Source: Zygnema cylindricum
Taxonomy: Eukaryota > Streptophyta > Zygnematophyceae > Zygnematales > Zygnemataceae
Assembly (NCBI GenBank): GCA_037447655.1
Contig: JBBHKE010002008.1
Location: 83,194-147,193 of the forward strand
Direction of reading: 5' to 3'
Length of the DNA stretch: 64,000 nt
Shown: positions 1 through 46,448 of the stretch, one piece after another
Numbering within the stretch: position 1 is the stretch's first letter
Layout: each line of letters begins with the position of its first letter
Notes under the pieces: model-generated
What the model was told of the DNA's origin: nothing
Database searches by the model: none
The model's input: only the letters and a program-made list of their open reading frames with translations
Translations under genes and position numbers: made by a program

Positions 1-776
1 GAAAGATGTGGGAACAGATTACGAATTTTTTGTTTCATACTATTGCACCCCAAGCTAACTGTTCACCACAGTAACCGTCAGAAACAATAAGGTGTTGGTG
101 TCAACGTCCAACTCCAGGTGGTTATCATCACCTACATCTGTCTGAAGTCGTTTTCGATGGTCGTTAGGATAGTTTGTTGGTTGAAACTATATTGTGTCTA
201 TCACGAGTGTCAAAGGTTTATAGTGGTTTCAAATGTTATTATGTCATAGTATACGTCAAACGGTTAAGGGTTTTAACGTCGGATTAGCTTGTTCGTATGG
301 TATTCTATGTTGTGAACCTTCAGAGGGTTTTTGATAGGGAATCTCATTAGTTAGTTTTCAATATATACTCTTTGTGAGTATAAAGTTAGGACTTAGCCAA
401 ATTTGTAATAATCTAGTATTGAGATCTAACTCTCTAAGGGATAGTTTTTGGGAGACTTCCAAGTGTTGTATCTTATGGTATGCTTGTTCGATTAGGCTGC
501 AATTTTGGGAATTGGCAAACTGCATATGATACTGTATTATTGTAAACTTTGGTGATATTTGGAAACTGTGAGCACTATCTGTGTTATATCAAAGTTGGTT
601 GTTTGATAGGATTGCTGGTAGCTTTTGCTGAAGTCTGTCTACATCCACTACTATTGGTGGACCTCAACCTGCAACTGTGGTTGTGGAATAACAAAGACTG
701 CCAATGACACCACTTGTCAATCGAACCCCACGTTATCATACTTTGTTTTTTAAGCATTAGACAAGGGTGTAGAAAG
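1..776. repeat. Perfect mirror repeat, two 345-base arms around an 86-base centre
   Basis: Base i equals base 777-i on the same strand for every position 1-345 against 432-776; I checked all 345 pairs by eye and found no mismatch. This is a reversal without complementing, so it is neither a hairpin nor an inverted repeat. The centre (346-431) is not mirrored; it holds a small ordinary hairpin, tatactc/gagtata, at about 364-382. The left arm reaches base 1, so the repeat may extend outside the window. The arms are not purine- or pyrimidine-biased, so the classical triplex (H-DNA) explanation for mirror repeats does not fit. No gene is seen here. Confidence 0.97.
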
Positions 777-890: not shown

Positions 891-1543
891 CTATTTTTCT
901 TCCTCTATATCTGTGGAACTGCCAAACAGTGCAGTCGGAGATGATGTAGTATACACCGGGTAACATCCAGACACCGAGACATTTGTTTTCCCTTGATTCC
1001 ATAAATCCAAAGGAACCACCACTTTGGTTCCTTCGGGATTTCCGTGGTCCCGAACGGTACATTGTTCTTTCCACATGCTTAAACTCATATTTTGCCAGGT
1101 CTAAGTTGCCATCCCTAACAAAATTTCAAATTGAGTCCCTTCAACCACTAAAAAGGGAGTTCAATTTTCACCCTTTAGACTACGTCATTTAAGAATTCGA
1201 TTTCCTTGGCTTTAATGATGCCATGGACAAGTTGGCTACCGATGCTTACCGTGCTCAAGCAGATGTTACTAGGGTAGATTTTTGGCCGGAGTTCTTCAGG
1301 CATTTTGTGTAAGGGGAAAGTGGTAATGAGGTTGAGGAGCACTCCGCTGTCGACCACAATGTTCTTGTATCCTCCGTACCTGTTGAGCTTGAAGTTTCTA
1401 GTCCGGTTCTGTATAAGAGCCACTAAGAAGGCTTTGTAGTCCTTATCCACTATAGGCGTTTTCAGATCTGTAGACAAAAAGACTGAGGTTGGGGGAGTGG
1501 CCTTGTTGACACGGTTCTTCCCAGAGTGGATTTCTTCTCCCAA
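891..1543 (-). pseudogene. Retropepsin-like protease of element H
   Basis: The frame opening at 1543 contains V-V-D-S-G near its middle, the DSG form of the retroviral aspartic protease active site. It is followed by a hydrophobic strand and, after a stop near 1170 and a frame change, by the block F-E-I-L-L-G-M, which matches the I-L-G strand that closes the retropepsin fold. The frame then continues to a stop near 891. Such proteases cut the Gag polyprotein. The active-site residues are intact but the gene is broken by at least one stop plus a frameshift. The family assignment rests on motif order only. Confidence 0.6.
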
Positions 1544-2182
1544 TGCCTAAATGAGGATTTCTTCGGGCAGGTTGTGAGAGGATGCCAGTGTCTTTAGGTG
1601 GGTAAGGGCGTATGGCATGAGGTGGCGGACTAGCATTACAACCGGTTTGGAGGAAGGAAAGGTGGCCTCCGATGAGGATGGTGGTGAATCCGGTTCCTGC
1701 AGATCTTGATCTTATCCTTCCTTCTCGTCATTCTCGGATCCGGAATCTGCGATCGGCGGAGTTTGGGGAGTGTCATTTTCCGGGCGTTCTACCATGTATC
1801 TTTAAAACCAGTCCTGATTGTCCTTTTTCTCCTTTTCCAGCGACTCCTTCTCCCACTGTTATTTCTCGTTCTGCTAGTTTTCGAAACCAGGAGGCAATTA
1901 AGTGTTGAAAGGAAGAGATGGCGGGTTATTGAGTTTGATTCGGAGGCTAATGTCGTTGTTCAACATCAGTGCCTTGGGAGTAAATGACAAAGGACTTGTA
2001 GCTTTCCGGTTGTGGTCCCTTTGACCCGATTTTGCCTGTCGTGTCTTTGCATCGAGGTGGAGTGCGGAGTTGGCGACGACTGTCTCCCACCCCAACATTC
2101 CAAGCCTCGGAAAGGGATGTTCGGGCATATTGGGCATTTGAGGGTTCTTAATCCCAACCCAATAAGTCATCATCATTAGCAC
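1544..2182 (-). pseudogene. Linker between zinc knuckle and protease of element H
   Basis: An open stretch of 94 codons (1898-2182) is rich in Asn, Lys and Arg and has no motif I recognise. The remaining part up to the protease (1544-1897) is open only in short pieces. Position and strand place it between nucleocapsid and protease of the same Gag-like gene. Confidence 0.35.
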
Positions 2183-2576
2183 TCGCTATGCTTTGAAGGT
2201 CAAGCTCCGTGAGCTTTTGTAACATCTCCTGTTTCTGTTTTTGGAGACGTTGTGCTGCCGTGAGTAGAGCAAGCCAGGAAGAAGATCCTAAGCGGAGGGC
2301 AGCCAACTCTGCAGCCATTGCGGTTAGTTGCTGAAACTGTTGGATGATGAATTCCAGTGTCAGGCTCGATAGAGCCATCGGTGTTCCCTCCGCTTCATCC
2401 TCGATAATCGGAACTCGGCGTCCCCAAGGATAGAGGAGTTGAAGTGGGAGAGGGTTAACGGCAATTTCGCCTTCTCCAGTGAATAGGGCGAACTGCATCA
2501 TTTCTTTAGGAACTCTATTCTTTCGGAAACATTCCGCTTCCTTATGCTCAAGGAAGCCGCAAGCCTCGCATTTCGT
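2148..2576 (-). pseudogene. Nucleocapsid of element H with CCHC zinc knuckle
   Basis: Reading the minus strand at 2529-2570 gives a 14-residue C-X2-C-X4-H-X4-C knuckle (C-E-A-C, then H, then C), the nucleic-acid-binding motif of retroelement Gag. It is followed without a stop by about 125 residues that include a Gln/Leu-rich, probably coiled segment (around 2210-2350). A TGA lies four codons before the knuckle, so the link to the capsid part is broken. The knuckle spacing is the standard retroviral one. Confidence 0.7.
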
Positions 2577-2625
2577 TCATTCAAAGGTGTATTTACTGCG
2601 GATTTCATTTGAGATCTAGGCGTCA

Positions 2626-3746
2626 TCAAACTTTGGAAGTTTGATTTGTCTCAGCTGGGATTGCGACATTTTGGCGGTTTCTCCTCGAGGAGTCGGACGG
2701 TAAGTTTCCTTGGTTACTGGCATCTTTTCTTCCCCCTCTTCCCCTTTTAGCCATTCTTGTTACTTTTGGGTCCTTTCTATGTGTTCCTTTTCCCAGTCCT
2801 TTAGCTTCAAGGCTAGCTCCGGTGTAAGTTTCTGTGTGCTGTGCTTCCACCTATGGCTTGTTTGCAGACAATTTAAGCAATTGTAAAGAAAAACTCTTTC
2901 GTCTACTCCCATTGTCGGTTTCTGACCCGTTGTCAGCCACTTGCTTCCTTTTGAGCTTCCGCAAAGCTTGAAATTCAACCTTTTCCTCCTCACTCAAGGA
3001 GGTCTCTCCGGCGTATCCTGCAAAATTTGCGCGGGACTTGCCGGTCACGGCTTTCTCCCTGGCCTCACTGTGGACGAAATGGTCGTAAAACTTCATCACC
3101 ACCAACGAAATTTCCTTGGCTGAAGGATTAATGTCGTGATTTCTCTGTCGGACAATCTAATTATCCAGGGCACTCTGCCCTGTTGGTCCGAATGAATTAC
3201 GGACTGCGATGAAATATTTGGCTGCCATCGCAGGAAGATCAATCGTGGATAGTTTCATCTTCTGACAAAGGCTAGAGAGTCGGTTAAAGAGGGTCTGCGG
3301 AGTCTCGTTCTTCAAGCATCAAAATTCCTTGAATTCCTTGATCGGAGACTTGTTCCTCTCGGTGTAAAAGAGTCTCCATATGTTAAGCAAAATGGTACAA
3401 GGATTCGGATTAGCAACCATAGAGTTGCCTGAATTGCTTGCAGCTGGTTAACATAGGTACTTCCTTGCGCCTGGAGTTTCATGTCTTGTGTAAAGGTAGC
3501 AGTCACAGTTGTCACAGCTGCCGCAGCCAAGTCAGCCTCCGCTTGTAAAACTGCAGCATCAAGGGCTGGATCCGAGATCTTGATGCTAGGAGCCATCAAA
3601 AGAGGTTGACGCTCTTTGTAATCCGCAACCGCCCCTCCAGAAGGGTAGTTGACCATCATGGGGAAGAGTGTTGTTTCGAAGTCATCAGGAATGTCTCCTC
3701 CTCCGTACTTATTGATTTTGGCTAATGTGAAAGATTTCCACAACAA
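2626..3746 (-). pseudogene. Capsid-like part of element H Gag
   Basis: Three overlapping frames carry a coherent protein: an Ala-rich helical stretch (3400-3600), a segment reading like Gag capsid with an F-N-R-L-S-S-L-C motif (around 3260-3300), then a Lys/Glu-rich stretch (2851-3105). At least two frameshifts and two stops separate them. The order capsid, then knuckle, then protease is that of an LTR-element Gag. I cannot assign a family beyond that. Confidence 0.5.
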
Positions 3747-4420
3747 CTCAAAATCCGAAAATGCGATCCTCGAGCTATCTTCGTAAAGATCGAGATATCC
3801 CCCATTTCCTTTTCTTCCTCTACAAGGTTGGTGAAATGGGAAGAGGAAGGCCTGATGGGGTTGACAAACTGAATCGGTGAGATGACTCTCATATCCTCTT
3901 CCTCAGGACCGGAACCGTATCCTTCTCCGGTAGAAGGTGTTGCCCTGAGAGGTGTGGATCCCCCTCCCACAGAGGAAGTACCACCGTCTGAAAATATGGT
4001 TGGAGGAAGGATATTCCCCACTACTCCTCTATATCAAGGAGAGTATTGTTCCTCCCTGATAACTTTCTCCACCGATGGGATGTGGAGGTGAGGTCGATTC
4101 AAAAGAGGTCTTTGGGGAACGGGTGGCGACCAAGACGCAGACAAAGACTACTAGGGCCCGGTTGGATAAGGCGTATGTTTCCGCGTTCGCCTCTTGGAGG
4201 TCTCGGGAGGTGGAGTTCTAAAACTGGTGGAAGGGGAACGCCTATAAGGAGGTGAGTAAGCGGGGACGTCGTGTTTGTAGGGTAGGAGAGGCGGATCCGG
4301 TGACCCACGAACTGCTGCAGGCTCTAGTGTAGGACCCGGGGAGTAAAAAGATGGAGGTGGAGGAGAAGATGGGAGATCCGAAGATACTCTGGAAGATGGT
4401 GAAGGGGATGTTGACGGCCT
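3722..4420 (-). pseudogene. Proline-rich part of element H Gag, left of the solo LTR
   Basis: In the frame entering from 4420 the protein is strongly proline- and serine-rich up to a TAG near 4158. After a frame change it continues as a Gly/Thr/Glu-rich segment (3722-4021). Removing the solo LTR and one copy of its target duplication joins this frame exactly to the frame at 5484-6047, which shows that the two halves were once one reading frame. Confidence 0.55.
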
Positions 4421-5478: not shown

Positions 5479-6205
5479 AGCCTTAAGGGAATTTGAATCC
5501 TCTCGTCCGGTCGTAACTCCACGAAAGCCTCCACGGCGGAAGCAACCTCCATCAAGACAAAGGTAGGCTCTTCCCGGGGAAGAGGAGTAGACTCTGGAGG
5601 TAAATCTGCACCCAAACCCTTCATGTTAGGTTCAATGTTCTCCCCCCCTTCCCAATGAAGAGGAGGCACTCGGCTGATTTCCGAGGAAGGAACTTTGGGC
5701 TGAGTGCTTGCAAGAGGAGAAGTCGCCTGAGCTGACGCTTCAGGATGCGGGTCTGTATTTGGCGTAGGAGGATTCTGCTTGCTGAAAATCTTAGTAGATA
5801 TACGCCTAGCTTCCCGAATAAGTATCAATTCGTGTTCCCATAACTTCCGCCTTTCTACCTCTAAGGCTTCCCAATCTACCGTGACAGGTGCGGCCCTTGC
5901 CTTAGCTTTGCCCTGGGATTTTAAAACTTCCACAAGTTCTTTGGCCTTTTCGACTACTTTGGTAAGATCCGCTATCCCCATCCCCAGAATTTCGGGATCA
6001 TTAGGTCTAGTGCGCCACCATCCCTTGGACAAATCCTCTGGTCCCATACCCGAAACCTCTGGATCGGTCGGTTTCGATCGCTAGAGCCATTCAGCAGGGC
6101 GAACATGAGTTGCTGCAGGAGCATGTTCCTCGGTTAAGGCAGACACTTGAGTGGGGGAAGTATCCTCCTTGGGAAGAGGTGCGAATCTCCCCTTGCTGTC
6201 ACGGT
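5479..6205 (-). pseudogene. Acidic and proline-rich part of element H Gag
   Basis: An open frame of 196 codons (5457-6047, the last few in the LTR) begins with a Trp/Arg-rich patch, then a Lys/Glu-rich, probably coiled segment with a helical V-V-E-K-A-K-E-L-V, and ends in a Pro/Thr/Glu-rich tail. Upstream the same protein can be followed to about 6205 across one TAG near 6080. I do not recognise a domain. It runs in frame into the proline-rich segment across the solo LTR. Confidence 0.5.
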
Positions 6206-7546
6206 GTTCAAACCTCTTTCCCCTCGATGGATCTCGTGCTTCCCTTCGATACCACCTTCTCCTCTACGAGGCCACGAAGAGGTACGTCCCCGGAGGGTTT
6301 GTAAGCTGCGGTGTCCTGAGAGGAAGATGGAGGAGGGCGAGAATAGGGAGCTATTTGTGACCAGTCCTGCACCGACTCTGAAGAGCTGCTCTCCGAAAAC
6401 TGCTCAAAATCTCCACCACCCGTCCAACGAGTCTAACCACTCTGACTCGATCTACCCGAGCCACTCGCTGTACTAACTCCTTCTTCACCTTCCGCTCATC
6501 GAGGTCGTGAAGGGCAAGGAGTTCCTTACGACTTGGGCGACGTGGATCCATCAAATCCGCGGGGTCAATCTGGATCTCTACCTGGGGAATTTTGGATTTG
6601 GTGTGAAGCCCGACCTCCGGAAGATGACCCAAACGAGGCTCCCTCTGTGCTTGTTCAAACCTCTTTCCCCTCGATGGATCTCGTGCTTCCCTTCGATACC
6701 ACCTTCTCCTCTACGAGGCCACGAAGAGGTACGTCCCCGGAGGGTTTGTAAGCTGCGGTGTCCTGAGAGGAAGATGGAGGAGGGCGAGAATAGGGAGCTA
6801 TTTGTGACCAGTCCTGCACCGACTCTGAAGAGCTGCTCTCCGAAAACTGCTCAAAATCTCCACCACCCGTCCAACGAGTCTAACCACTCTGACTCGATCT
6901 ACCCGAGCCACTCGCTGTACTAACTCCTTCTTCACCTTCCGCTCATCGAGGTCGTGAAGGGCAAGGAGTTCCTTACGACTTGGGCGACGTGGATCCATCA
7001 AATCCGCGGGGTCAATCTGGATCTCTACCTGGGGAATTTTGGATTTGGTGTGAAGCCCGACCTCCGGAAGATGACCCAAACGAGGCTCCCTCTGTGCTTG
7101 TTCAAACCTCTTTCCCCTCGATGGATCTCGTGCTTCCCTTCGATACCACCTTCTCCTCTACGAGGCCACGAAGAGGTACGTCCCCGGAGGGTTTGTAAGC
7201 TGCGGTGTCCTGAGAGGAAGATGGAGGAGGGCGAGAATAGGGAGCTATTTGTGACCAGTCCTGCACCGACTCTGAAGAGCTGCTCTCCGAAAACTGCTCA
7301 AAATCTCCACCACCCGTCCAACGAGTCTAACCACTCTGACTCGATCTACCCGAGCCACTCGCTGTACGAACTCCTTCTTCACCTTCCGCTCATCGAGGTC
7401 GTGAAGGGCAAGGAGTTCCTTACGACTTGGGCGACGTGGATCCATCAAATCCGCGGGGTCAATCTGGATCTCTACCTGGGGAATTTTGGATTTGGTGTGA
7501 AGCCCGACCTCCGGAAGATGACCCAAACGAGGCTCCCTCTGTGCTT
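6206..7546 (-). repeat. Three tandem 447-bp units within element H coding sequence
   Basis: The unit 6206-6652 is repeated at 6653-7099 and 7100-7546; by eye the third copy differs at a single base (near 7368). The period is 447 = 3 x 149, so repetition preserves frame. On the minus strand each unit encodes a charged Arg/Val/Glu-rich stretch (open for 93 codons to a TAG) and, in another frame, a Ser/Glu-rich stretch. Near-identity means the expansion is recent relative to the decay of the gene, or was homogenised. The array ends a base or two before the duplication flanking element G. Confidence 0.9.
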
Positions 7547-7571
7547 GACACTTTGGCTGGGCCCTAATATA

Positions 7572-26510: not shown

Positions 26511-26850
26511 TTTACGTGAACGAAATTAAATTTTTGGGGTATTGTTTTTGAAAATTAAGTTTACGTCGCTATTGTTCAAATTGTGCAATTCATTTTTTTC
26601 TGATTGCTACGTATAATTTTTGACTATTGAAAAAATCGCAAAAAATTGCGATGTACTTTTTGTTCGGTAAACTGAACGGTCAATTTACAGAAACAGTATG
26701 GTGTTTTACGGTAAATGTACGGTTTTGTACAAAAAATGTATGGACTTTGACGAAAAGGTACGTTGCACTTTGTAGTACTTTCTGACCTGTGAACTGAACT
26801 CAAATTTTACGGGAAACGTATAGAATTGTAACGAAAATGTACGGACTATG
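26511..26850. other. Non-coding flank between elements J and B
   Basis: AT-rich sequence with repeated words such as TGTACGG and TTTACGG. The same style of sequence continues after element B at 33295, and the duplication CTATG joins the two sides. No gene is seen. Confidence 0.6.
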
Positions 26851-27898
26851 TGTTGAAATTTATAGATTTCTAGAGTATTTTCTAGGTTTAAATATGTTTT
26901 TATATAAGGAAAAAGAAAAGGACGGACAGCCTGCCTCCACCTCCGCTCTCTAGCCCCCATACTTGTTGTAGTCACTGAAGGAAAGAGAGAGAGGTTGATC
27001 CATGGCTGCCTTAGTTCAACAGACAGCTATTTTTAGTAGGTTACTAAAAATATCCTTGACGGACCAGAGATTTGATCCCGGTACCTGCGGTTCGTCAAAT
27101 CGACAGGTAGCGGTCAGCTTTATCCTAATAGACTAGGACCAATGCTAAATGCTATGGTATGTGATAGATATATATTTAGTTCGAAAGGATAAAGTTCATT
27201 TAACTAAAACTGTTTACGGCGAACATATATACAGTTTTATAAAGTACGTCGTACGACGCTAATTCAAAACGGATACCACGCATTTTATTTCTACATCGGA
27301 ACAAATATCGCGCAAGTATTTATTCCGGCCAAGATTACGTTTCGCATATAATCCAACGGCGCACATCATCGCCGAAATCCCGGAGTGGTCACTTTGGCAT
27401 TTAGTGACGTGGCATCACCTGGCGCCACGTGGGGAGACATCATTCGGTCGCGGGAATTCCGAGGAACGTATGGATGAGTGGAAAGTATACAGGCGTCCAC
27501 TTATGGCCTTGTCGTACAGAGGCCGTACAGAAAGTACATCGGCAGTAGTACTTTCTAGTACTATACAGTTTTGTGATTGGTTCGTACAGGCAGTAGATAG
27601 GAGCTGTGAGAGGGAATTAAGAAAAACTAGGACTTAGGAAAATTTAGGTAGATAGTCCTCTCTCTCAGAGAATTTGTATAAATTGGCATCTTTGCCACCC
27701 TATAACTTATCGCATGGTTGGCCGTTTTCAGTGATTCTTTTTTTCTACGGACTCAGGGGAGTCCAGGCTACACAGGGGTGCAGTCAAATTGTCAGTTTGC
27801 CTTCTTGGGAAGCAGTGGTTGTGGCTTAAAGTGGGTTAGTTAAATACTATCTAGAGGCTTCCTGTATTCTGTGGTCCAATGGAGGACACAGAATTGCA
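26851..27898 (+). repeat. 5' LTR of element B
   Basis: It starts TGTTGAAATT and ends GAATTGCA. It holds the T-arm-like hairpin (27056-27098, TTGACGGACC/GGTTCGTCAA), the composite site at 27428-27446 (ATTCG for ATTGG), a second ATTGG near 27569, and a TATA-like TGTATAAATTGG at about 27666. That is followed by the hairpin TGGCA-TCTT-TGCCA. The gag ATG lies at 27879. Confidence 0.95.
27056..27098 (+). other. T-arm-like LTR hairpin of element B
   Basis: The outer stem TTGACGGACC pairs with GGTTCGTCAA (one G-T pair). The inner part GATTTGATCCC resembles a tRNA T-arm or B-box, best read on the minus strand as GGGATCAAATC. The equivalent stems in other families have different sequences but still pair. 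Confidence 0.55.
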
Positions 27899-30800
27899 GG
27901 TTATGGGCCCACCCTCTAGGGTGCCCACCTTCAATGGATCTGGGTTCATCTATTGGGAAGCCATGATGATGGGAGCTTTGTGTGAAAAACGATATTGGGG
28001 TATCGTCAGTGGACAAGTGAAACGTCCACCTTCAGGAACTCCACCAGGATTTGGGGGAGTAAGGTTTCCTGCAACAACGGCTGCCTCGGCGGAGGAGGCA
28101 GATGATGGGGACAGCAGTGTGTCCGAAAAGGGGAAAGGGAAGGAGACACCCCTTACTCCTATTGCCACAGTATCGGGAGCGGCAATCGTGAAGACCGTGG
28201 AGAACGATACTCAAATGTGGGAGGATGTAAACATGGCTGCCAAGAACTTCATTCTGAGGCACCTCACTCAAGGTTTGGCCACTCCTCATCTTCACATTTA
28301 CAAGGCCGTGGAGTTGTGGGTGAGTTTGGTGGAAATTTATAGAGCTGGAACTATTCAGGAGCTCCAGTTGGCTGAGCAAAAGCTATTGAGTTACACTTAC
28401 AAAGGAGGAAAGATGTTAGATTACTGTAATGATCTTTCTTGTTTGTATACAGAAATGGAAAGTGTCGGGTGGATAGGTACAATGAAAATGAAAGTTAACA
28501 CCCTTATCATGAAATTACCAAATGAGTTCGAAAACTTAGTGTACCGAGTACAGGGAATGCCTGATAGTTCATGGAAATGGAACACAGTAGTCAGGATGAT
28601 ACTTGTGCAGGAAAACACAATGGAGATTAGGAGAGGAGGAAAGAGCATTCAAGCTCTAGCAGTAGGAGGGGACCGATGGGGAAAGGACCCGAAGAAACCT
28701 TATAGAGGGGAAAGAGATCATTTAGGGGGACAAAGGCCCCCAAAGGGTCTTTGTCATTATTGCAAAAAGCCGGGGCACTTTATTGCAGATTGTGTCAAGC
28801 TATCAGAGCTGAGGCTCCAAGAGAACCGTGGAGGGGGTTCTTCCGGAGGGAAGAAAAAGGCACTTGTGGTTACAAAGGTGTCAGGAGAAACCGAGGATGA
28901 GTCCTCTGAGGAGGATGGGGAGCTTCTTCTTGACGAGAGTTTGGAGGAGAAGGAGATTCCTCGGAGGCAGAAGTGTGCCCTTGGAGCCATCCGGGAAGCT
29001 CCACAGGAAGGATGGATCATCGACTCAGGTGCATCCATGCATATGTGTCGTGATAAAGAACTCTTCACTAAGTTAAGAAAGATTCCTACTGTAGAGATAG
29101 AGTATGGGGATGGGAGAGTGGTTACTACAGATCTAGTGGGATCAGTAGATCTGAAAGTCTTAGTGGAGGGTAAGACTTCTATACTTACATTCTCAGATGT
29201 ACTTTACATTCCACAGTTGAGTAAAAACCTTGTCTCTACGTCTGTGTTAGATGACAAAGAGTTTGATACCTTCACCAGAAAAGGAGTCTTTACAGCTAAG
29301 TATGGGGATGAAGTTTACTTCACAGCAGATAAGGGTAGCCAAGGAATGTTTAGGCTTAACTTGAGTAATGAAAAGAAGAATGCTTACTATGTTGGTGTTC
29401 CTAAGGTGATGATTTGGCATAAGCGGTTGGGGCATGTACATTTTGATAGGTTAACGGAAATGAAAAAACTTGGGGTAGTAGATGGCATTGAGTTTGGGGA
29501 TAATGAAATGATGGATGATTGTAGTGGTTGTGCTCAAGGTAAGGCTCACAGACTTCCCTTTCCCAAAGCCGCCACATATAGAGGTGAGAAAGTATTAGAT
29601 TTAGTCGACACAGATATTTGGTGGCCTGCAAAAGTACCTTCGGTTGGAGGAAAGAGGTTTATGATGACAATAACTGATGACTGGTCTAGATACTCTAGAG
29701 TCTACTTTCTGAAAACAAAGTCTGAAGCATCAACTTACTTCAAAGAATATAAAGCTTGGAGTGAGAAGTTGCATGAAACCCCCATTAAAAGGATAAGGAG
29801 TGATAATGGGGGGGAATATACCTCTAACGAGTTTGAGGAATATTTGAGAGATGAGGGAGTGCAGCACCAGAAAACTGTACCATATAACCCAGAACAAAAT
29901 GGGGTAGCTGAGAGGTTGAATAGAACACTAGGAGATAGTGCATGTAGTATGTTGGCAGACAAGAAAATAGGAAAGAGATTTTGGGCAGAGGCAATGAACT
30001 GTGCCAACTATATTAAAAATAGAGTCCTTACCTCAGCTGTAAAGGGAGTGACACCTTATGAGAGATGGGTTGGAAGGAAACCAGATATCTCACACCTTAA
30101 AGTATTTGGTAGCGAAGTTTACAGTCTTGACACGGATAGGAAAAACTGGAAACTAGATGCTAAGGGAAAACCTGGATACTTTGTGGGATATGATGAGGAT
30201 GTTAAGGGATATAGAGTCTATGACTTGGCAAAGAAAGATATCATTCTGGTCAAACACTTAGTTGTCATGGATGAAGGGAAGTCATTTAACCCCTTCAAAT
30301 ATACAAAGTAGATTAGGATCAGATTTGAGTCTGAAAGTGAGGAGAACTCGGTCGTTCCCGAAAAAGACATGAGTGAAACTGTGATTACAGATTCAGGGGA
30401 GATCGAAGATATAGGAGACTCACCGGAAACCTCACATACTCCTATGGACTTCGAGGAGATGGAAGAAGCGGGACAAGATACGGTTTTTATGGACAGGGGA
30501 GCCGATGAGACAGTGAGAAGAAATCCAAGACTTCCATCCATTCCAGCTTCGGAGTTTGAGGGAGGAAGGAGGAGCAGCAAAAGGATACAGGAAAAACAAG
30601 CTGCACATAAGGTAACTAAGCTATCTCACCCAGATGAGCCTCAGTCTTACTTAGAGGCAGTGAATAGTCCAGAGAAAGAAAGATGGATTAGAGCCATAAA
30701 TGATGAGATGGCTTCTATCATGGAAGCAAATACTTGGGAACTAGCGGATTGCCCTCCAGACAGAAAACCTATTGGATGTAAATGGATATTTAAACTAAAA

Positions 30801-32228
30801 CTGAACCCAGATAATACAATTGAGAGGTATAAGGCTCGATTGGTAGCAAAGGGGTTCACCCAAAAAGAGGGGATTGACTATGAGGAAACCTTTGCTCCAG
30901 TTGTTCGGTTCCCATCGGTAAGGATTCTCCTCAGTCTGGCCGCAGCGGAAGACATGGAAATTCACCAGATGGATATTAAGACTGCTTTTCTTAATGGTGA
31001 GTTAGAGGAAGAAATTTTTATGAGGCAACCCGATGGGTTTGTGGAAGAAGGAGAAGAGAGCAAAGTGTGCAGGCTCATAAAGTCGTTATATGGACTGAAA
31101 CAGGCTCCCCGACAGTGGAATAAGAAACTTGATGAGTTTCTCACCGATCTGGGATACATCCGGATCAGCTCTGACCATTCTATCTATATGTTTGAAGATG
31201 AGAATGGTGTCATTTTTATTGCAATTTATGTGGATGATCTGCTTGTGTTAAGTAAGTCTTTAGATAATATCAATAGGCTAAAGAAAGATCTTAGGGGCAG
31301 ATTTGATATGAAGGATTTAGGGGAGGCAAAATATATTTTGGGGATCCAAATGGAGAGAGATAGAGGGAAGAAGATTATCAGACTTACTCAGAAAGAAGCA
31401 ATAGGTAATATGCTTGAGAAATTCCAGATGGAAAATGCTAACAGTTGTACCACTCCCATGGACTTGAAAAAAGTAAGTGATGGGAGTGTAGAAGGAGGAG
31501 TGATGATCTTAGACGATCAGATGAGTCTAGAGGAGAGAGAGTTCATGAAGTGTATTCCTTATAGACAGGTCGTAGGAAGCTTAATCTATTTTATGAACTG
31601 TACCAGGCCGGACATAGCGGCAACAGTTGGAGTACTCAGTCCGAGTCTTAATGATCCTAGGAAGAGAGATTGGGAGGCAGCCAAGAGAGTCATGAGATAT
31701 CTGGTGGGAACTAGAGAGTTATGGTTGCATTTGGGAGGGGAGCATACTGATATCACCACTTGGAGTGACGCCAGTTATGGGGATGCACCTATGAGAAGAT
31801 GCACTTCTGGATATGTTTTGTATGTGGGGGAAGGTGCTTGCTGTTGGAGCAGTAAGCAACAAAAGGTGGTTGCTCAGTCTACTATGGAGGCTGAGTATAT
31901 GGCGTCGTGTTCTGCTGTAAAAGAACTAATGTGGGTGAAATCATTGTTACAAGAACTGGGATTTATGAAGGAGGGAGTGCATGAAATCTTTTGCGATAAC
32001 CAAGCTGCAATTCCAATTGCAGCCAATCCAAAACACCATTTCAAAGCAAAACATATGGACATAAGATTAAGCTTCGTAAGAGAAAAAGTTGAAAATAAAA
32101 TTCTAAATCTTGTGTATAGACCTGATGAAGAAATGGTGGCTGACATGATGACCAAACCTGTGCCCTCTCCTAAACTAAAATATTGTCGGGAAAAATGCGG
32201 GTTGAAAGAAAAATTAAAATTAGACTAG
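27879..32228 (+). CDS. gag-pol polyprotein of element B, interrupted by one TAG
   Basis: A single frame of 1450 codons. Gag occupies residues 1-330, with the knuckle C-H-Y-C-K-K-P-G-H-F-I-A-D-C from residue 292. The protease has D-S-G-A-S at residue 382. Integrase has H514 of the zinc segment, C-S-G-C, then D579, D642 and E678 (the D-D-35-E set). Reverse transcriptase has Y-V-D-D at 1117-1120, and RNase H has S-D-A-S-Y at about 1296-1300. The only defect is TAG at 30309-30311 (codon 811) between integrase and reverse transcriptase, where the relative J has a lysine codon, so A-to-T in AAG explains it. The ATG is 20 nt inside the LTR. Later in-frame ATGs (27903, in the primer site) are alternatives. 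Confidence 0.93.
27899..27911 (+). other. Primer-binding site of element B (initiator tRNA-Met half)
   Basis: GGTTATGGGCCCA lies directly after the LTR end and is complementary to the initiator tRNA-Met anticodon arm. It codes for V-M-G-P in the gag frame. Confidence 0.88.
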
Positions 32229-32241
32229 AAAATAAGGGGAG
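32229..32241 (+). other. Polypurine tract of element B
   Basis: AAAATAAGGGGAG immediately precedes the 3' LTR and overlaps no coding sequence, since the pol stop ends at 32228. It is the expected plus-strand primer. Confidence 0.85.
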
Positions 32242-33289
32242 TGTTGAAATTTATAGATTTCTAGAGTATTTTCTAGGTTTAAATATGTTTTTATAAAAGG
32301 AAAAAGAAAAGGACGGACAGCCTGCCTCCACCTCCGCTCTCTAGCCCCCATACTTGTTGTAGTCACTGAAGGAAAGAGAGAGAGGTTGATCCATGGCTGC
32401 CTTAGTTCAACAGACAGCTATTTTTAGTAGGTTACTAAAAATATCCTTGACGGACCAGAGATTTGATCCCGGTACCTGCGGTTCGTCAAATCGACCGGTA
32501 GCGGTCAGCTTTATCCTAATAGACTAGGACCAATGCTAAATGCTATGGTATGTGATAGATATATATTTAGTTCGAAAGGATAAAGTTCATTTAACTAAAA
32601 CTGTTTACGGCGAACATATATACAGTTTTATAAAGTACGTCGTACGACGCTAATTCAAAACGGATACCACGCATTTTATTTCTACATCGGAACAAATATC
32701 GCGCAAGTATTTATTCCGGCCAAGATTACGTTTCGCATATAATCCAACGGCGCACATCATCGCCGAAATCCCGGAGTGGTCACTTTGGCATTTAGTGACG
32801 TGGCATCACCTGGCGCCACGTGGGGAGACATCATTCGGTCGCGGGAATTCCGAGGAACGTACGGATGAGTGGAAAGTATACACGCGTCCACTTATGGCCT
32901 TGTCGTACAGAGGCCGTACAGAAAGTACATCGGCAGTAGTACTTTCTAGTACTATACAGTTTTGTGATTGGTTCGTACAGGCAGTAGATAGGAGCTGTGA
33001 GAGGGAATTAAGAAAAACTAGGACTTAGGAAAATTTAGGTAGATAGTCCTCTCTCTCAGAGAATTTGTATAAATTGGCATCTTTGCCACCCTATAACTTA
33101 TCGCCTGGTTGGCCGTTTTCAATGATTCTTTTTTTCTACGGACTCAGGGGAGTCCAGGCTACACAGGGGTGCAGTCAAATTGTAAGTTTGCCTTCTTGGG
33201 AAGCAGTGGTTGTGGCTTAAAGTGGGTTAGTTAAATACTATCTAGAGGCTTCCTGTATTCTGTGGTCCAATGGAGGACACAGAATTGCA
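32242..33289 (+). repeat. 3' LTR of element B
   Basis: It has the same 1048-bp length as the 5' LTR. Differences seen by eye include ATAAAAGG for ATATAAGG, GACCGG for GACAGG and CGCCTGG for CGCATGG. The composite site is at 32819-32837 with the same ATTCG variant. Confidence 0.95.
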
Positions 33290-35401: not shown

Positions 35402-36540
35402 GGTTATGGGCCCACCCTCTAGGGTACCAATCTTTAATGGAACTGGCTTCATATACTAGAAAAGTATGATGATAGGAGCTCTATGCAAAAAAAGGTTTTG
35501 GGGGATAGTGAGTGGACGGTTGGGGCGTCCATCAAGTCTTGGAATTCCTCCAGGGTTTGGAGGAAGCAGATTCACCAGAAAAGAGGATCCACCTTCAACG
35601 GAGGAAACAAAAGAAGGAGAGGTGGTGGACAAAGGAAAGGAGAAGGAGGCGACCACACCAATAGCAACTGGTTCGGTATTCATGTCACCTATTCCGAGGA
35701 CCGAGGAGAATGATAATGAAACCTGGGACTTCAACAATATGGCGGCAAAGCACTTCATCCTACGCCATCTCACTCAAGGACTTGCATGTCCTCATTTGCA
35801 AGTAGAAAGGGCATCCGATATTTAGATGGCTCTCATAGAGATGTACCGAAGTGGTACGATTAAGCAACAAAAGTTGGCTGATCAGAAAGTTAAGGAGTGT
35901 GTATACAAAGGGGGGAAGATGTTGGATTTTTGCAATGAGCTTGCTACACTCTTCATGGAGCTAGAGAGTGCGGGAAAATATTTTAGTGAAAAAGAAAAGG
36001 TTAACTGTTTACTGATGAAGTTACCCGATGAGTTCGAGAACATAGTCAACCGTGTGCAGGACTTGCTGGACTTAAGGTGGATATGGAACTTAGTGGTAAG
36101 GATGATTCTCGTTTGGGAGAATACGATTGAGATGCGAAAGGGAGGAAAGAGTGGCAAATCATTGGCAACTGTGACCGATTGGAGGAACAAGGATTCCCGG
36201 AAACCAATCGAAAACTATGGGGGGAGGGAGTAGAAAAATCAGACCGACGAGTTCGGACCAAGGGCTCCCAAAGGTTTATGTCATTTTTGAGAGAAACCTG
36301 GGCAGTATATGGCAGAGTGCACTAAGCTAACCAAGCTTCGGTTAAAGGAGGGGAAGACCGGTGGTACCCCGAAAGGAAAGAAAAAGGCCCATGTGACACA
36401 AGTACATGAGGCAAATCCGAGGACGAGGACGATGAGCTCCTTTTAGATGAGGAGTTGGAGGCGAAAAACGAGGTCAAAATTCCACGAAGGCATAAATGTG
36501 CTTACGGTGGATTGAAAGGTGAAGCAGGCTGGATTGTAGA
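35382..36540 (+). pseudogene. gag of element C
   Basis: The ATG is in the LTR (35382). A TAG follows the F-I-Y block near 35457, another TAG lies after A-S-D-I (35823-35825, shared with D), and a third ends the frame at 36231. The knuckle region near 36280-36315 has lost its first cysteines (a stop in C-H-F-C). The acidic run follows. Not functional. Confidence 0.85.
35402..35414 (+). other. Primer-binding site of element C
   Basis: GGTTATGGGCCCA, intact, directly after the LTR. Confidence 0.85.
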
Positions 36541-37460
36541 TTGAAGTGCCTCCATGCACATGTGGAAGGATAGGCACCTGTTCACTAAGATAAGAAAGAT
36601 TCCCACCGTAGAGATAGAGTACGAGGATGGGAGGATAGTCACCACTACTCTTGTAGAATCGGTAGATTTGAAAGTGTTAGTAGAAGGAAAGACATCCATA
36701 GTAACATTCTCCGATGTATTGTTTATTTTGGAGCTGAACAAAAACCTCATCTCTACATCCGTATTAGATGATAAGGGTTTTTTTACTAGCACTAGGGAAG
36801 GAGTCTTTACTGCTAGTTTTGAGGAGGATGTCTATTTCATTGCTGAGAAAGGTAGCCATGGGATGTTTAGGCTGGTTTTAAGTAATGAAAAGAAGAAACT
36901 TTATTATGCAGGTGTTCATGATATTATGATGTGGCATAAGAGGCTTGGGCATGTGAATCTAGACAAGTTAAGAGAGATGAAAAAGATGGGAGTGGTGGAA
37001 GGGATTAACTTCAGTGAGAATGATAATATAATTGATTGTAGTGGATGTGCTCAAGGTAAAACACAAAGATTACCCTTTCCTAAAACAACCACCTATAAGG
37101 GAGAAAAAATTCTAGATCTAGTACACACAGATATTTGGGGACCGGCTAAAGTGCCCTCACCGAGGGGGAAGAGATTTATGATGACTATCACTGATGATTG
37201 GTCTCTGTATTCCTGAGTGCTTTTTTTGAAAAACAAGTCCGAAGCTTAGGATTGTTTTAGACAATATAAAGCATGGAGCGAAAAACTCCATGAAACTCCA
37301 ATCAAGAGAATAAGGAGTAACAATGGTGGAGAGTATACTTCTAACCACTTTGAGGATTTTCTGAGGGAAGATGGGGTTCAACACCAAAAGACAGTTCCAA
37401 AAAACCCGAAACAGAATGGGGTAGCTGAGAGGTTAAATAGAACACTAAGTGATAGTGCTA
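36541..37460 (+). pseudogene. protease and N-terminal integrase of element C
   Basis: The protease active site reads D-x-S-A-S with a TGA where the aspartate-serine step should be (near 36542). The frame 36554-37216 is then open through the integrase zinc segment (H-K-R near 36933, C-S-G-C-A-Q-G near 37038) to T-I-T-D-D-W-S. Short frameshifts follow. The D-N-G-G-E motif is changed to N-N-G-G-E (near 37318), so the second catalytic aspartate is lost. Confidence 0.85.
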
Positions 37461-37465
37461 GAATT

Positions 37466-39738
37466 ATGTTGTCAGATAAGAAGAAAGGAAAAAGGTTTTG
37501 GGCAGAAGGAATGAACTGTGCTATTTACCTCAAAAATAGAGTTCTTACTTCAGCTATAAAAGATCAAACACCTTATGAGAGATGGAAAGGCCGGAAACCA
37601 GAGATATCTCACTTAAAAGTTTTCGGCAATCAAGTATTCGGTCTAGATGCAGATAGGTCTAATTGGAAGCTAGATCCTAAAGGAAAACAGGGATACTTAT
37701 TAGGATATGATGAGGATGTTAAAGGATATAGAGTTTATGATCTAAAAAGGGAAGATATAATCTTAGTGAAGCATCTAGTAGTTATGGATGAAAGAAAGTC
37801 TGTGGATCCCTTCAAATATACAAAGTCAATAAAAATCAGATTTGAGACAGAAAATTCCGATGACTTTGAGCTTCCTAACTATCCAGGTTTTAGAGAAGAT
37901 GACATTCTTGCAAGTACAAATCAGACCAAAAAGGGCTCGGCTGTGGAAACTCCAATGACAACTCTATCGGAAGCGGAAGACGTGGTGGAAATTGATTTGG
38001 AATCAAGGGATAGGAGAGAAGCCGAGTTTGTTCGAAATAATCCACGAGAACCATCTATTCCGGTTTCAGATTTTGAGGGGGGGAGGAGAAGTAGCAAAAG
38101 ACTGCAAGAAAAACAGGTTAATAACAAGGTAACTAAACTATCTCATCAAGATGAACCTCAAACTTATGGAGAGGCGATGACTTGTCCAAAAAGAAATCTG
38201 TGGAAGAAAGCCATCAATGAGGAGATGGCCTCAATTAAGGCAGCCGAAACTTGGGAGCTGGTGGATTGTCCACCTAACCGAAAACCAATCGGTTGTAAGT
38301 GGGTTTTCAAATTAAAACTGAACCCAGATAACACAATCGAGCGCTACAAGGCCCGATTAGTGGCAAAGGGATTTACACAAAAGGAGGGAATTGACTACGA
38401 GGAAACCTTTGCCCCGGTGGTCAGATTTCCCTCCGTCCGCATACTTCTCAGCCTGGGAGCAGCGAAAGACATGGAAGTGCACCAGATGGACACCAGGACA
38501 ACCTTTTTGCATGGAGAATTGGAAGAAGAGATCTTCATGCGACAACACGAAGGGTTTGTGGAGGAAGGAGAGGAGAGTAAGGTATGCCGGCTGATTAAAT
38601 CTCTTTATGGTTTGAAACAAGCGCCTTCACAGTGGAATAAGAAGCTTGATGAGTTTCTTACCGGTCTGGGATATATCTATATCAGCTCAGATCACTCAAT
38701 CTATGTTTTCGAAGATGAGGAAGTTTTTATATTTATTGCAATTTATGTTCATGATTTGCTTGTCTTAAGTAAATCAATGGAAAAAATTAATAAACTGAAA
38801 ACCGATCTTAAGGGGAGATTTAAATGAAGAATATGGGGGAAGCAAAATATATTTTGGGAATTCAAGTAGAGAGAGACCGAAAAAGAAAAATTATAAGATT
38901 GACTCAAAAAGAAGAAATACGGAACATTCTTGAAAAATTTCAAATGGATAAAGCTAATAGTTATACAACTCCAATGGAGTTGAAGAAGGGAAGTGAGGGG
39001 AGTGAGGAAGAAGGAGTCATAGTCTTAGACGAGGAATTTTCTCCTGAAGAACAGAAGTTCATGCAGACTATTCCTTACAGGCAAGTAGTGGGAAGTCTAA
39101 TCTATTTTATGAATTGTACCCGGCCGGATTTAGCTGCAGCTATAGGAGTGATGAGTAGAAGTCTAAATGCTCCCACTAAGAGGGATTGGGAGGCAGCTAA
39201 GAGAGTCCTTAGATATTTGATAGGAACTAGGGATCTATGGTTGCATTTCGGTGGGGAGAATACTGACACCACTACTTAGAGTGATGTCAGTTATGGTGAT
39301 GCTCCGATGAGGAGATGCACTTCTGGATATGTATTACATGTGGGTGATGGGGCTTGCTGTTGGAGTAGCAAACAGCAAAAAGTGATTGCTTAGTCCACCA
39401 TGGAGGCTGAGTATATGGCCTCTTGCTCTGCTGTAAAAGAATTGATGTGGGTCAAGTCTTTGCTTGGTGAGCTTGGTGACCTTAAGAGATGTGTGCAGAA
39501 AATATTTTGTGATAATGAGGCAGGAATCGCTATTTCTGCCAATCCTAAACATCATGTTAAAGCCAAACACATGGACATTAGACTCACCTTTGTTAGAGAT
39601 AAAGTAGAAAATAAAAAAATCAGTTTAGAGTACCGACCAGATAGTGAGATGGAAGCAGATATGATGACCAAACCTCTGCCTTCTCCTAAGCTAATTTTCT
39701 GCAGAGAGAAGTGTGGTCTGAAATTAAAGATTGACTAG
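37466..39738 (+). pseudogene. C-terminal integrase, reverse transcriptase and RNase H of element C
   Basis: A 453-codon open frame (37466-38827) covers the integrase C-terminus, the acidic linker and most of reverse transcriptase, including Y-E-E-T-F-A. The catalytic block reads Y-V-H-D instead of Y-V-D-D (about 38748), a loss shared with D. A one-base shift at about 38823 opens 38824-39279, a TAG interrupts T-W-S-D-A-S-Y at about 39278, and another lies near 39391. RNase H resumes to the stop at 39738. Confidence 0.87.
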
Positions 39739-39751
39739 AAAATGAGGGGTG

Positions 39752-40805
39752 TGTATAAATTAATGGTCTTTTAAAGTATTTTCTAGGTCTGAATAGAAAT
39801 AAGAAAGAAGCTGAGGCAGTCTACCTCTAACTTCTCTCTCCAATTCTCAAACTTGTCGCAGTCACTGAGAAATTGGAGAGGGAGGTAGAGCCATGGCTAT
39901 CTAGGCTACCTAGAGGTTTACAGGAAATATATATTAGTTATGGGTTTATTTACTAAAAGGTATGTGCCGGCCATAGGATTTGATCCTGGTACCTACCGGC
40001 CGGCATACAGTTGGTAGCCGGTAGCCTTAGCCGTTAAGTCTAGAATCAGTGTTATGTACTATGAGGTTTGATAATTACTTAAACACTTATACGTAGGATA
40101 GTTCATTTAATTGAAATAGTTTTACGGGAGACATAGATCCAGTAATGTAAAAGTACGGATTACGGTACGGATTAGAAACGAATACCGCGCATTTATTTAT
40201 TTACCGAAACGAATACCGCGCATGTATTAATTACGGCTACGATTAAATGTGAATTTAATCGGAGGGCAGAAATTAAACGCAGAGATCGCGGAATAGAATT
40301 TCGGCGGTTTTTGATCATAGCCACATTGGATGACACGTGGCGGAATGACATTGGATCGCAGCATCTCCAAGGATTAAGGGAGCGAATCCGGATATTCCAC
40401 GTGTCGACATCTAGGCCATGTCGTACAATGTTCATACATAAAGTACATCGACAGTTGTACTTTTGTGTACGGAACTGTAATCTGATTGGCTCCGTACAAT
40501 AGTAGATAGAGTGTGTGAGAGAGATAGGACTTAGAAAAATTAGGAGATAGGACCCTCTCTCCCAAAGAGCTTCTGTACAAAAGGTCAACTTTGACCCTCC
40601 ATAACTTACTACTCAGGGGAGCAAATTCAGAGATCCTTTTTGCTATCGACTAAAGGGAGTCTTGCCTTCACAAGGGTGAAGTAGGTCAAAGTTATTGTCT
40701 GCCAGGGTGGCAGTTGTTTTTGCTGAAACACAAAGGGATCACGGTTATCCTAGAGGCTTCTTGGAAGCTGTCCACTCTGAGGACTTATCGAGGTCTCAAG
40801 TTTCA
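39752..40805 (+). repeat. 3' LTR of element C
   Basis: It starts TGTATAAATT (G-to-T against the 5' LTR) and ends CGAGGTCTCAAGTTTCA, with one base missing. Both peculiarities are shared with the 3' LTR of D. Exact composite site at 40336-40354. Confidence 0.92.
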
Positions 40806-42039: not shown

Positions 42040-43093
42040 TGAAACTTGAGACCTCGATAAGTCCTCAGAGTGGACAGCTTCCAAGAAGCCTCTAGGATAA
42101 CCGTGATCCCTTTGTGTTTCAGCAAAAACAACTGCCACCCTGGCAGACAATAACTTTGACCTACTTCACCCTTGTGAAGGCAAGACTCCCTTTAGTCGAT
42201 AGCAAAAAGGATCTCTGAATTTGCTCCCCTGAGTAGTAAGTTATGGAGGGTCAAAGTTGACCTTTTGTACAGAAGCTCTTTGGGAGAGAGGGTCCTATCT
42301 CCTAATTTTTCTAAGTCCTATCTCTCTCACACACTCTATCTACTATTGTACGGAGCCAATCAGATTACAGTTCCGTACACAAAAGTACAACTGTCGATGT
42401 ACTTTATGTATGAACATTGTACGACATGGCCTAGATGTCGACACGTGGAATATCCGGATTCGCTCCCTTAATCCTTGGAGATGCTGCGATCCAATGTCAT
42501 TCCGCCACGTGTCATCCAATGTGGCTATGATCAAAAACCGCCGAAATTCTATTCCGCGATCTCTGCGTTTAATTTCTGCCCTCCGATTAAATTCACATTT
42601 AATCGTAGCCGTAATTAATACATGCGCGGTATTCGTTTCGGTAAATAAATAAATGCGCGGTATTCGTTTCTAATCCGTACCGTAATCCGTACTTTTACAT
42701 TACTGGATCTATGTCTCCCGTAAAACTATTTCAATTAAATGAACTATCCTACGTATAAGTGTTTAAGTAATTATCAAACCTCATAGTACATAACACTGAT
42801 TCTAGACTTAACGGCTAAGGCTACCGGCTACCAACTGTATGCCGGCCGGTAGGTACCAGGATCAAATCCTATGGCCGACATATACCTTTTAGTAAATAAA
42901 CCCATAACTAATATATATTTCCTGTAAACCTCTAGGTAGCCTAGATAGCCATGGCTCTACCTCCCTCTCCAATTTCTCAGTGACTGCGACAAGTTTGAGA
43001 ATTGGAGAGAGAAGTTAGAGGTAGACTGCCTCAGCTTCTTTCTTATTTCTATTCAGACCTAGAAAATACTTTAAAAGACCATTAATTTATACA
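42040..43093 (-). repeat. 3' LTR of element D
   Basis: Nearly identical to the reverse complement of the 3' LTR of C, including the TGTATA start and the CTCAAG one-base deletion at the end. Exact composite site at 42491-42509. Confidence 0.93.
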
Positions 43094-43106
43094 CACCCCT
43101 CATTTT

Positions 43107-45379
43107 CTAGTCAATCTTTAATTTCAGACCACACTTCTCTCTGCAGAAAATTAGCTTAGGAGAAGGCAGAGGTTTGGTCATCATATCTGCTTCCATCTCA
43201 CTATCTGGTCGGTACTCTAAACTGATTTTTTTATTTTCTACTTTATCTCTAACAAAGGTGAGTCTAATGTCCATGTGTTTGGCTTTAACATGATGTTTAG
43301 GATTGGCAGAAATAGCGATTCCTGCCTCATTATCACAAAATATTTTCTGCACACATCTCTTAAGGTCACCAAGCTCACCAAGCAAAGACTTGACCCACAT
43401 CAATTCTTTTACAGCAGAGCAAGAGGCCATATACTCAGCCTCCATGGTGGACTAAGCAATCACTTTTTGCTGTTTGCTACTCCAACAGCAAGCCCCATCA
43501 CCCACATGTAATACATATCCAGAAGTGCATCTCCTCATCGGAGCATCACCATAACTGACATCACTCTAAGTAGTGGTGTCAGTATTCTCCCCACCGAAAT
43601 GCAACCATAGATCCCTAGTTCCTATCAAATATCTAAGGACTCTCTTAGCTGCCTCCCAATCCCTCTTAGTGGGAGCATTTAGACTTCTACTCATCACTCC
43701 TATAGCTGCAGCTAAATCCGGCCGGGTACAATTCATAAAATAGATTAGACTTCCCACTACTTGCCTGTAAGGAATAGTCTGCATGAACTTCTGTTCTTCA
43801 GGAGATAATTCCTCGTCTAAGACTATGACTCCTTCTTCCTCACTCCCCTCACTTCCCTTCTTCAACTCCATTGGAGTTGTATAACTATTAGCTTTATCCA
43901 TTTGAAATTTTTCAAGAATGTTCCGTATTTCTTCTTTTTTAGTCAATCTTATAATTTTTCTTTTTCGGTCTCTCTCTACTTGAATTCCCAAAATATATTT
44001 TGCTTCCCCCATATCCTTCATTTAAATCTCCCCTTAAGATCGGTTTTCAGTTTATTAATTTTTTCCATTGATTTACTTAAGACAAGCAAATCATGAACAT
44101 AAATTGCAATAAATATAAAAACTTCCTCATCTTCGAAAACATAGATTGAGTGATCTGAGCTGATATAGATATATCCCAGACCGGTAAGAAACTCATCAAG
44201 CTTCTTATTCCACTGTGAAGGCGCTTGTTTCAAACCATAAAGAGATTTAATCAGCCGGCATACCTTACTCTCCTCTCCTTCCTCCACAAACCCTTCGTGT
44301 TGTCGCATGAAGATCTCTTCTTCCAATTCTCCATGCAAAAAGGTTGTCCTGGTGTCCATCTGGTGCACTTCCATGTCTTTCGCTGCTCCCAGGCTGAGAA
44401 GTATGCGGACGGAGGGAAATCTGACCACCGGGGCAAAGGTTTCCTCGTAGTCAATTCCCTCCTTTTGTGTAAATCCCTTTGCCACTAATCGGGCCTTGTA
44501 GCGCTCGATTGTGTTATCTGGGTTCAGTTTTAATTTGAAAACCCACTTACAACCGATTGGTTTTCGGTTAGGTGGACAATCCACCAGCTCCCAAGTTTCG
44601 GCTGCCTTAATTGAGGCCATCTCCTCATTGATGGCTTTCTTCCACAGATTTCTTTCTGGACAAGTCATCGCCTCTCCATAAGTTTGAGGTTCATCTTGAT
44701 GAGATAGTTTAGTTACCTTGTTATTAACCTGTTTTTCTTGCAGTCTTTTGCTACTTCTCCTTCCCCCCTCAAAATCTGAAACCGGAATAGATGGTTCTCG
44801 TGGATTATTTCGAACAAACTCGGCTTCTCTCCTATCCCTTGATTCCAAATCAATTTCCACCACGTCTTCCGCTTCCGATAGAGTTGTCATTGGAGTTTCC
44901 ACAGCCGAGCCCTTTTTGGTCTGATTTGTACTTGCAAGAATGTCATCTTCTCTAAAACCTGGATAGTTAGGAAGCTCAAAGTCATCGGAATTTTCTGTCT
45001 CAAATCTGATTTTTATTGACTTTGTATATTTGAAGGGATCCACAGACTTTCTTTCATCCATAACTACTAGATGCTTCACTAAGATTATATCTTCCCTTTT
45101 TAGATCATAAACTCTATATCCTTTAACATCCTCATCATATCCTAATAAGTATCCCTGTTTTCCTTTAGGATCTAGCTTCCAATTAGACCTATCTGCATCT
45201 AGACCGAATACTTGACTGCCGAAAACTTTTAAGTGAGATATGTCTGGTTTCCGGCCTTTCCATCTCTCATAAGGTGTTTGATCTTTTATAGCTGAAGTAA
45301 GAACTCTATTTTTGAGGTAAATAGCACAGTTCATTCCTTCTGCCCAAAACCTTTTTCCTTTCTTCTTATCTGACAACAT
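43107..45379 (-). pseudogene. integrase C-terminus, reverse transcriptase and RNase H of element D
   Basis: It mirrors element C frame by frame: open frame of 453 codons (44018-45379), shift, 43566-44021, a stop in the RNase H T-W-S-D-A-S motif, then 43107-43445 to the TAG. The catalytic block is Y-V-H-D as in C. Only a few residues differ from C (for example D for E after R-K-P, E for K after T-C-P). Confidence 0.88.
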
Positions 45380-46443
45380 AATTCTAGCACTATCACTTAG
45401 TGTTCTATTTAACCTCTCAGCTACCCCATTCTGTTTCGGGTTTTTTGGAACTGTCTTTTGGTGTTGAACCCCATCTTCCCTCAGAAAATCCTCAATGTGG
45501 TTAGAAGTATACTCTCCACCATTGTTACTCCTTATTCTCTTGATTGGAGTTTCATGGAGTTTTTCGCTCCATGCTTTATATTGTCTAAAACAATCCTAAG
45601 CTTCGGACTTGTTTTTCAAAAAAAGCACTCAGGAATACAGAGACCAATCATCAGTGATAGTCATCATAAATCTCTTCCCCCTCGGTGAGGGCACTTTAGC
45701 CGGTCCCCAAATATCTGTGTGTACTAGATCTAGAATTTTTTCTCCCTTATAGGTGGTTGTTTTAGGAAAGGGTAATCTTTGTGTTTTACCTTGAGCACAT
45801 CCACTACAATCAATTATATTATCATTCTCACTGAAGATAATCCCTTCCACCACTCCCATCTTTTTCATCTCTCTTAACTTGTCTAGATTCACATGCCCAA
45901 GCCTCTTATGCCACATCATAATATCATGAACACCTGCATAATAAAGTTTCTTCTTTTCATTACTTAAAACCAGCCTAAACATCCCATGGCTACCTTTCTC
46001 AGCAATGAAATAGACATCCTCCTCAAAACTAGCAGTAAAGACTCCTTCCCTAGTGCTAGTAAAAAAACCCTTATCATCTAATACGGATGTAGAGATGAGG
46101 TTTTTGTTCAGCTCCAAAATAAACAATACATCGGAGAATGTTACTATGGATGTCTTTCCTTCTACTAACACTTTCAAATCTACCGATCCTACAAGAGTAG
46201 TGGTGACTATCCTCCCATCCCCGTACTCTATCTCTACGGTGGGAATCTTTCTTATCTTAGTGAATAGGTGCCTATCCTAACACATGTGCATGGAGGCACC
46301 TGAATCTACAATCCAGCCTGTTTCACCTTTCAATCCACCGTAAGCACATTTCTGCCTTCGTGGAATTTCGACCTCGTTTTTCGCCTCTAACTCCTCATCT
46401 AAAAGGAGCTCATCGTCCTCGTCCTCGGATTTCCCCTCATGTA
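45380..46443 (-). pseudogene. protease and N-terminal integrase of element D
   Basis: Open from 46177 to 45629 in the integrase zinc segment. The protease active site reads D-S-G-A-S-M-H-M-C with the triad intact (near 46290), unlike C, and is followed by a TAG. Identity with C drops on this side of about 46190. Ends at the E insertion. Confidence 0.86.
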
Positions 46444-46448
46444 CCTGT

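Follow-up and report, generated by a model that had tools for sequence, protein, structure and literature searches.

Gap-closing tools align reads to the flanks of an assembly gap and extend the contigs, after which PBJelly shrinks the gap (PMC3504050); IMAGE likewise fills gaps with reads that reach in from the flanks (PMC2884544). The reversed stretch of DNA described here occupies exactly the place that such tools extend, whereas the accounts of both methods, in their passages on gap filling (PMC3504050, PMC2884544), make no mention of plain reversal. Mirror repeats of the H-DNA type share the mirror symmetry on one strand. Those repeats, however, are described as homopurine/homopyrimidine tracts, whereas the arms considered here are mixed in sequence, 345 nt long and exact, and they include a reversed LTR end. 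Reversed, non-complementary copies have also been claimed by Seligmann, who proposed a "3'-to-5' inverted" RNA polymerisation by an "invertase" (titles cited in PMC5591391 and PMC4942731). That proposal differs in that it concerns mitochondrial RNA, and it is not needed for the present mirror.

The locus opens a stretch of 64,000 nt from the genome of Zygnema cylindricum (hereafter the window; G000:C1512:83194-147193, plus strand), taken from an assembly with 2689 contigs and a total of 352,776,454 bases. Base i is the same as base 777-i for every i from 1 to 345, with 0 mismatches, which makes 1-345 the plain reversal of 432-776. No such symmetry holds for the centre, 346-431: when 346-388 is set against 389-431, 31 of the 43 position pairs disagree. 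Both features had been described in a sequence-only reading of the window, and both are confirmed. The same reading had set the mixed arms apart from purine/pyrimidine-biased H-DNA, as the composition of the left arm bears out (T 120, A 90, G 79, C 56); we rejected an H-DNA mirror repeat on these counts. Arms of such mixed sequence put a chance origin out of the question. Reverse-complement pairing is broken at 375 of the 388 position pairs of 1-776; this is therefore a mirror and not a palindrome, and an inverted duplication or foldback palindrome, with its reverse-complement arms, was rejected on that evidence. A tandem repeat as the source of the mirror was also rejected, there being no array within 1-776.

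At the sensitivity of exact 16-mers, the pair 1-345/432-776 is the sole long mirror repeat of the window. Comparison of the window with its own reversal gave 666 such matches, 660 of them from this pair, and the six others connect 53880/53881 to itself, to 46689 and to 51853. The identical 776 bases stand in the assembly at C1512:83194-83969 (100%). The features of the region, as we interpret them, are as follows.

1-345, no strand assigned: probable artefactual arm, the plain reversal of 432-776, abutting an N run on its left (mirror, k-mer and LTR comparison).
346, no strand assigned: probable junction of artefact and natural sequence, corresponding to position 646-648 of an LTR of about 997 bp (LTR alignment).
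346-693, plus strand: apparently natural sequence, the last ~350 bp of a putative copia-type LTR whose upstream ~646 bp are missing (genome search and LTR alignment).
346-431, plus strand: unmirrored centre, within the LTR; in the model preferred below it would equal an overlap of 431 minus an overhang of 345.
432-776, plus strand: natural arm, whose letters, when reversed, yield 1-345 (mirror and LTR comparison).
694-776, plus strand: flank outside the LTR, with its reversal inside 1-83 (genome search; unmatched beyond 699).

Searching the organism's own genome with 1-776 gave 1584 candidate places, of which 40 were scored, one of them the window itself, so that a second mirrored LTR could be missed. 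All 39 other scored places match solely within 340-699, at 88-92% identity, and none of these 39, drawn from the 40 scored of 1584 candidates, covers 1-339. Several matches among the same 40 of 1584 form pairs about 5.2 kb apart on the same strand. Self-comparison of three two-LTR elements gave an LTR length of 996-998 bp, with TGT at the start and CAACA at the end, and in all six of their LTRs the counterpart of window position 346 is LTR position 646-648. Judged from these alignments, 346-693 is the last ~350 bp (the 3' third) of an LTR of about 997 bp that has many copies in the genome. Eight of eight aligned copies (from 5 contig stretches, out of the 39 other scored places) continue to the left of junction 346 with a sequence common to them, which the window does not have. 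By the same comparison, the ~646 bp of LTR expected upstream of 346 are missing, and the reversed arm occupies their place. The LTR-bearing element appears to be of copia type, a label based on Pfam hits to gag, integrase and reverse transcriptase in an element of the window and on similar frames, recognized by eye, in one LTR-bearing element; we read this content as that of a plant. A young-looking copia element lies at 26850-33289, with LTRs of 1049 bp that are 99.3% identical and with gag, integrase and reverse transcriptase domains.

The sequence to the left of the junction does not behave as LTR when read as written. When the left arm is compared with LTR positions 1-650, all six LTRs give it a score lower than the average of 30 shuffled versions, whereas its reversal aligns with LTR positions ~733-997 at 89-91% in every one of the six. 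At E 1e-8, the arm matches LTR-bearing loci when these are plainly reversed, and it matches none of them as written. In 306 kb of this genome, both strands included, none of its 331 15-mers turns up; the right arm has 89 of its 331 there, in a background that includes five loci chosen for bearing the LTR and that favours the right arm. The sequence-only reading had proposed a search for either arm alone to learn which is ancestral. That comparison, made here in part and within the genome, identifies the right arm as natural (39 of 39 other scored places match 340-699 only) and the left as the odd one (as written, it matches 0 of 6 LTRs beyond shuffled controls).

Between the two arms identity is 100%, whereas no other scored copy exceeds 92% identity to the natural sequence. 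Read backwards, 694-776 is likewise present in the left arm; this flank lies outside the LTR, and none of the 39 other scored places matches it beyond 699. The presence of this reversed locus-specific flank, together with the 100% identity, implies that the arm was built from the letters of its own contig. The flank itself shares 0 of its 69 15-mers in either direction, and we take it as natural because it is contiguous with the LTR end.

Composition points the same way, weakly. Markov models of orders 1-5 score the right arm above the left by 2.8, 6.1, 3.8, 5.0 and 12.5, a weak test in that the training sequence of the models was the window itself and that, at orders 1-4, the reversed string outscores the natural one for 34, 23, 13 and 6% of natural windows. 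The left arm has 12 CpG and 3 GpC and the right arm the opposite, which agrees with a natural right arm, again weakly (CpG minus GpC is at least 11 in 63 of 887 background windows). The assigned direction of the arms rests on the k-mer and LTR evidence.

The sequence-only reading had also pointed to the sequence left of base 1, and what stands there is a run of 10,068 N (C1512:73126-83193). Window base 1 (83194) is the first letter after it, so the left arm directly abuts the N run. The same contig has another, short run of 10 N at 242968-242977 (positions 1-267193 of 348607 examined). The 10,068 N are likely a gap rather than masked sequence; that they could in principle be masked counts against an origin at a contig edge. 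The last 2 kb to the left of the run include sequence that resembles the end of a copia-type coding region (72-74% to four of the stretches examined). Assembly gaps are common in repeats, and with a copia coding end on the left and an LTR end on the right this is a place where they would be expected. Seven contig or gap edges were compared (C1512:83194; C1512:73125, 242967 and 242978; and the starts of C1512, C2068 and C2570), and a mirror is present solely at the C1512:83194 edge. That the six other edges carry none speaks against an artefact of contig edges, and indicates that the slip is not a general one. On the left side of the N run, after the copia 3' coding end, C1512:72726-73125 holds degenerate GCAGCTGCTATACAG-kind short repeats.

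We conclude, with a probability of roughly 0.9, that the mirror arose at a contig edge as an assembly (data-handling) artefact, whichever route produced it. That it is an artefact of some kind is close to certain, and the string, although real in the assembly, is almost certainly not a real feature of the genome. The sequence-only reading had left two options, a data-handling error that reversed a string and an unknown copying process. The former gains from the gap edge, the missing LTR and the use of the contig's own letters; the latter has become very unlikely.

The particular route that we prefer, an overhang of a read or consensus cut out of a reversed string, has about an even chance of being correct. 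In this model, the true start of the contig would have been at or very near window position 346, inside the LTR and beside the 10-kb N run. We infer a gap-extension step that would have worked from a read, or a local consensus, some 776 nt long, with an overlap of 431 nt (346-776) and an overhang of 345 nt. The length of the overhang would have been computed correctly, but the 345 nt would have been cut from the reversed, uncomplemented string, and the reversal of 432-776 would thereby have been pasted in front of 346. An overlap of 431 minus an overhang of 345 yields an unmirrored centre of 86, and the resulting string starts exactly at the N-run edge. The sequence-only reading had argued correctly that, with its centre unmirrored, the repeat is not a simple reflection of a file boundary. 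An overhang cut from a reversed string at a contig edge would leave just such a centre, which would thus be no pointer to biology. We know of no named program that makes a plain-reversal slip of this kind. Literature titles and the openings of abstracts yielded none, although such a slip may still have been reported.

Other routes to an artefact dispute only how the arm was made and leave the verdict unchanged. Either an extension from a seed in 346-431 ran in the wrong direction (outward to the right, the product then being reversed and prepended), or the complement step was lost or doubled for a foldback read. Identical letters would result, and missed adapters that produce opposite-strand subreads are described for PacBio reads in the PBJelly paper (PMC3504050). 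The wrong-direction version, however, leaves the seed length of 86 bases arbitrary, and the foldback version needs two independent faults where the cut overhang needs one, an argument from economy and not a test. Taken together, we regard these routes as a serious but tentative proposal. A nanopore strand backing out of the pore was rejected as a source, as a reversed signal is not called as exact reversed letters.

It is improbable that the mirror was inserted into the file after assembly, whether by later data handling or as a deliberate test insert. Nothing in the letters speaks against such an insertion, but the assembly has the same letters at C1512:83194-83969 (window and assembly may, however, share a source file), and the reversed piece replaces the LTR exactly at the N run, as an edge extension would. 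A genuine mirror duplication in the DNA of the organism, in which 345 nt would have been copied recently and exactly, reversed but uncomplemented, and joined to their source inside the LTR by an unknown parallel (3'-to-5') copying of a strand, is hardly credible, as the mirror is indeed exact and 345 nt long but its arm lies directly against the N run, has no divergence from its source and sits where ~646 bp of LTR belong, and the best mirrors at other loci examined are short. Polymerases and end-joining yield reverse complements, and polymerisation by Seligmann's "invertase" is, to our knowledge, not established. If true, a real copy in parallel orientation would be the first solid case in DNA known to us.

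Long mirrors were sought at other loci amounting to 273,375 non-N bases (best mirror per locus, exact 14-mer seeds, overlaps between loci included), and only short ones were found. The longest have arms of about 41 nt in a TA-rich run (L032) and of 23 nt in a TTTA-rich run (L018). The remainder are short centres or, in L034, two purine-rich 16-mers about 2 kb apart.

If the mirror arose at a contig edge, as we conclude, it has no meaning as biology, and its possible value lies in assembly quality control. A plain reversal would escape checks that are limited to reverse-complement palindromes. The reversed bases match nothing, and a user of the assembly could mistake them for unique sequence specific to the lineage. 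Other assemblies could be checked for such a fault cheaply, by looking for mirror repeats at gap edges.

Scans of the surrounding sequence added little. Between 338 and 6080, 10 open frames were compared with Pfam at E 0.1 and none gave a hit, tRNA and Rfam scans of the window found none, and 1-776 had no match in plasmid and phage collections. On the minus strand, 1175-3902 holds several overlapping open frames of up to 196 aa that look like a decayed gag region of a retroelement. One of these frames carries what we take to be a CCHC-like knuckle, and the four frames scanned there matched no Pfam family. At 6205-7547, a 447-bp unit forms three head-to-tail repeats with 99% matches. Farther along the window, 36398-40805 and 42040-46448 make up an ordinary inverted (reverse-complement) copia duplication, 99.4% identical over 4409 nt, with its two copies 1.2 kb apart.
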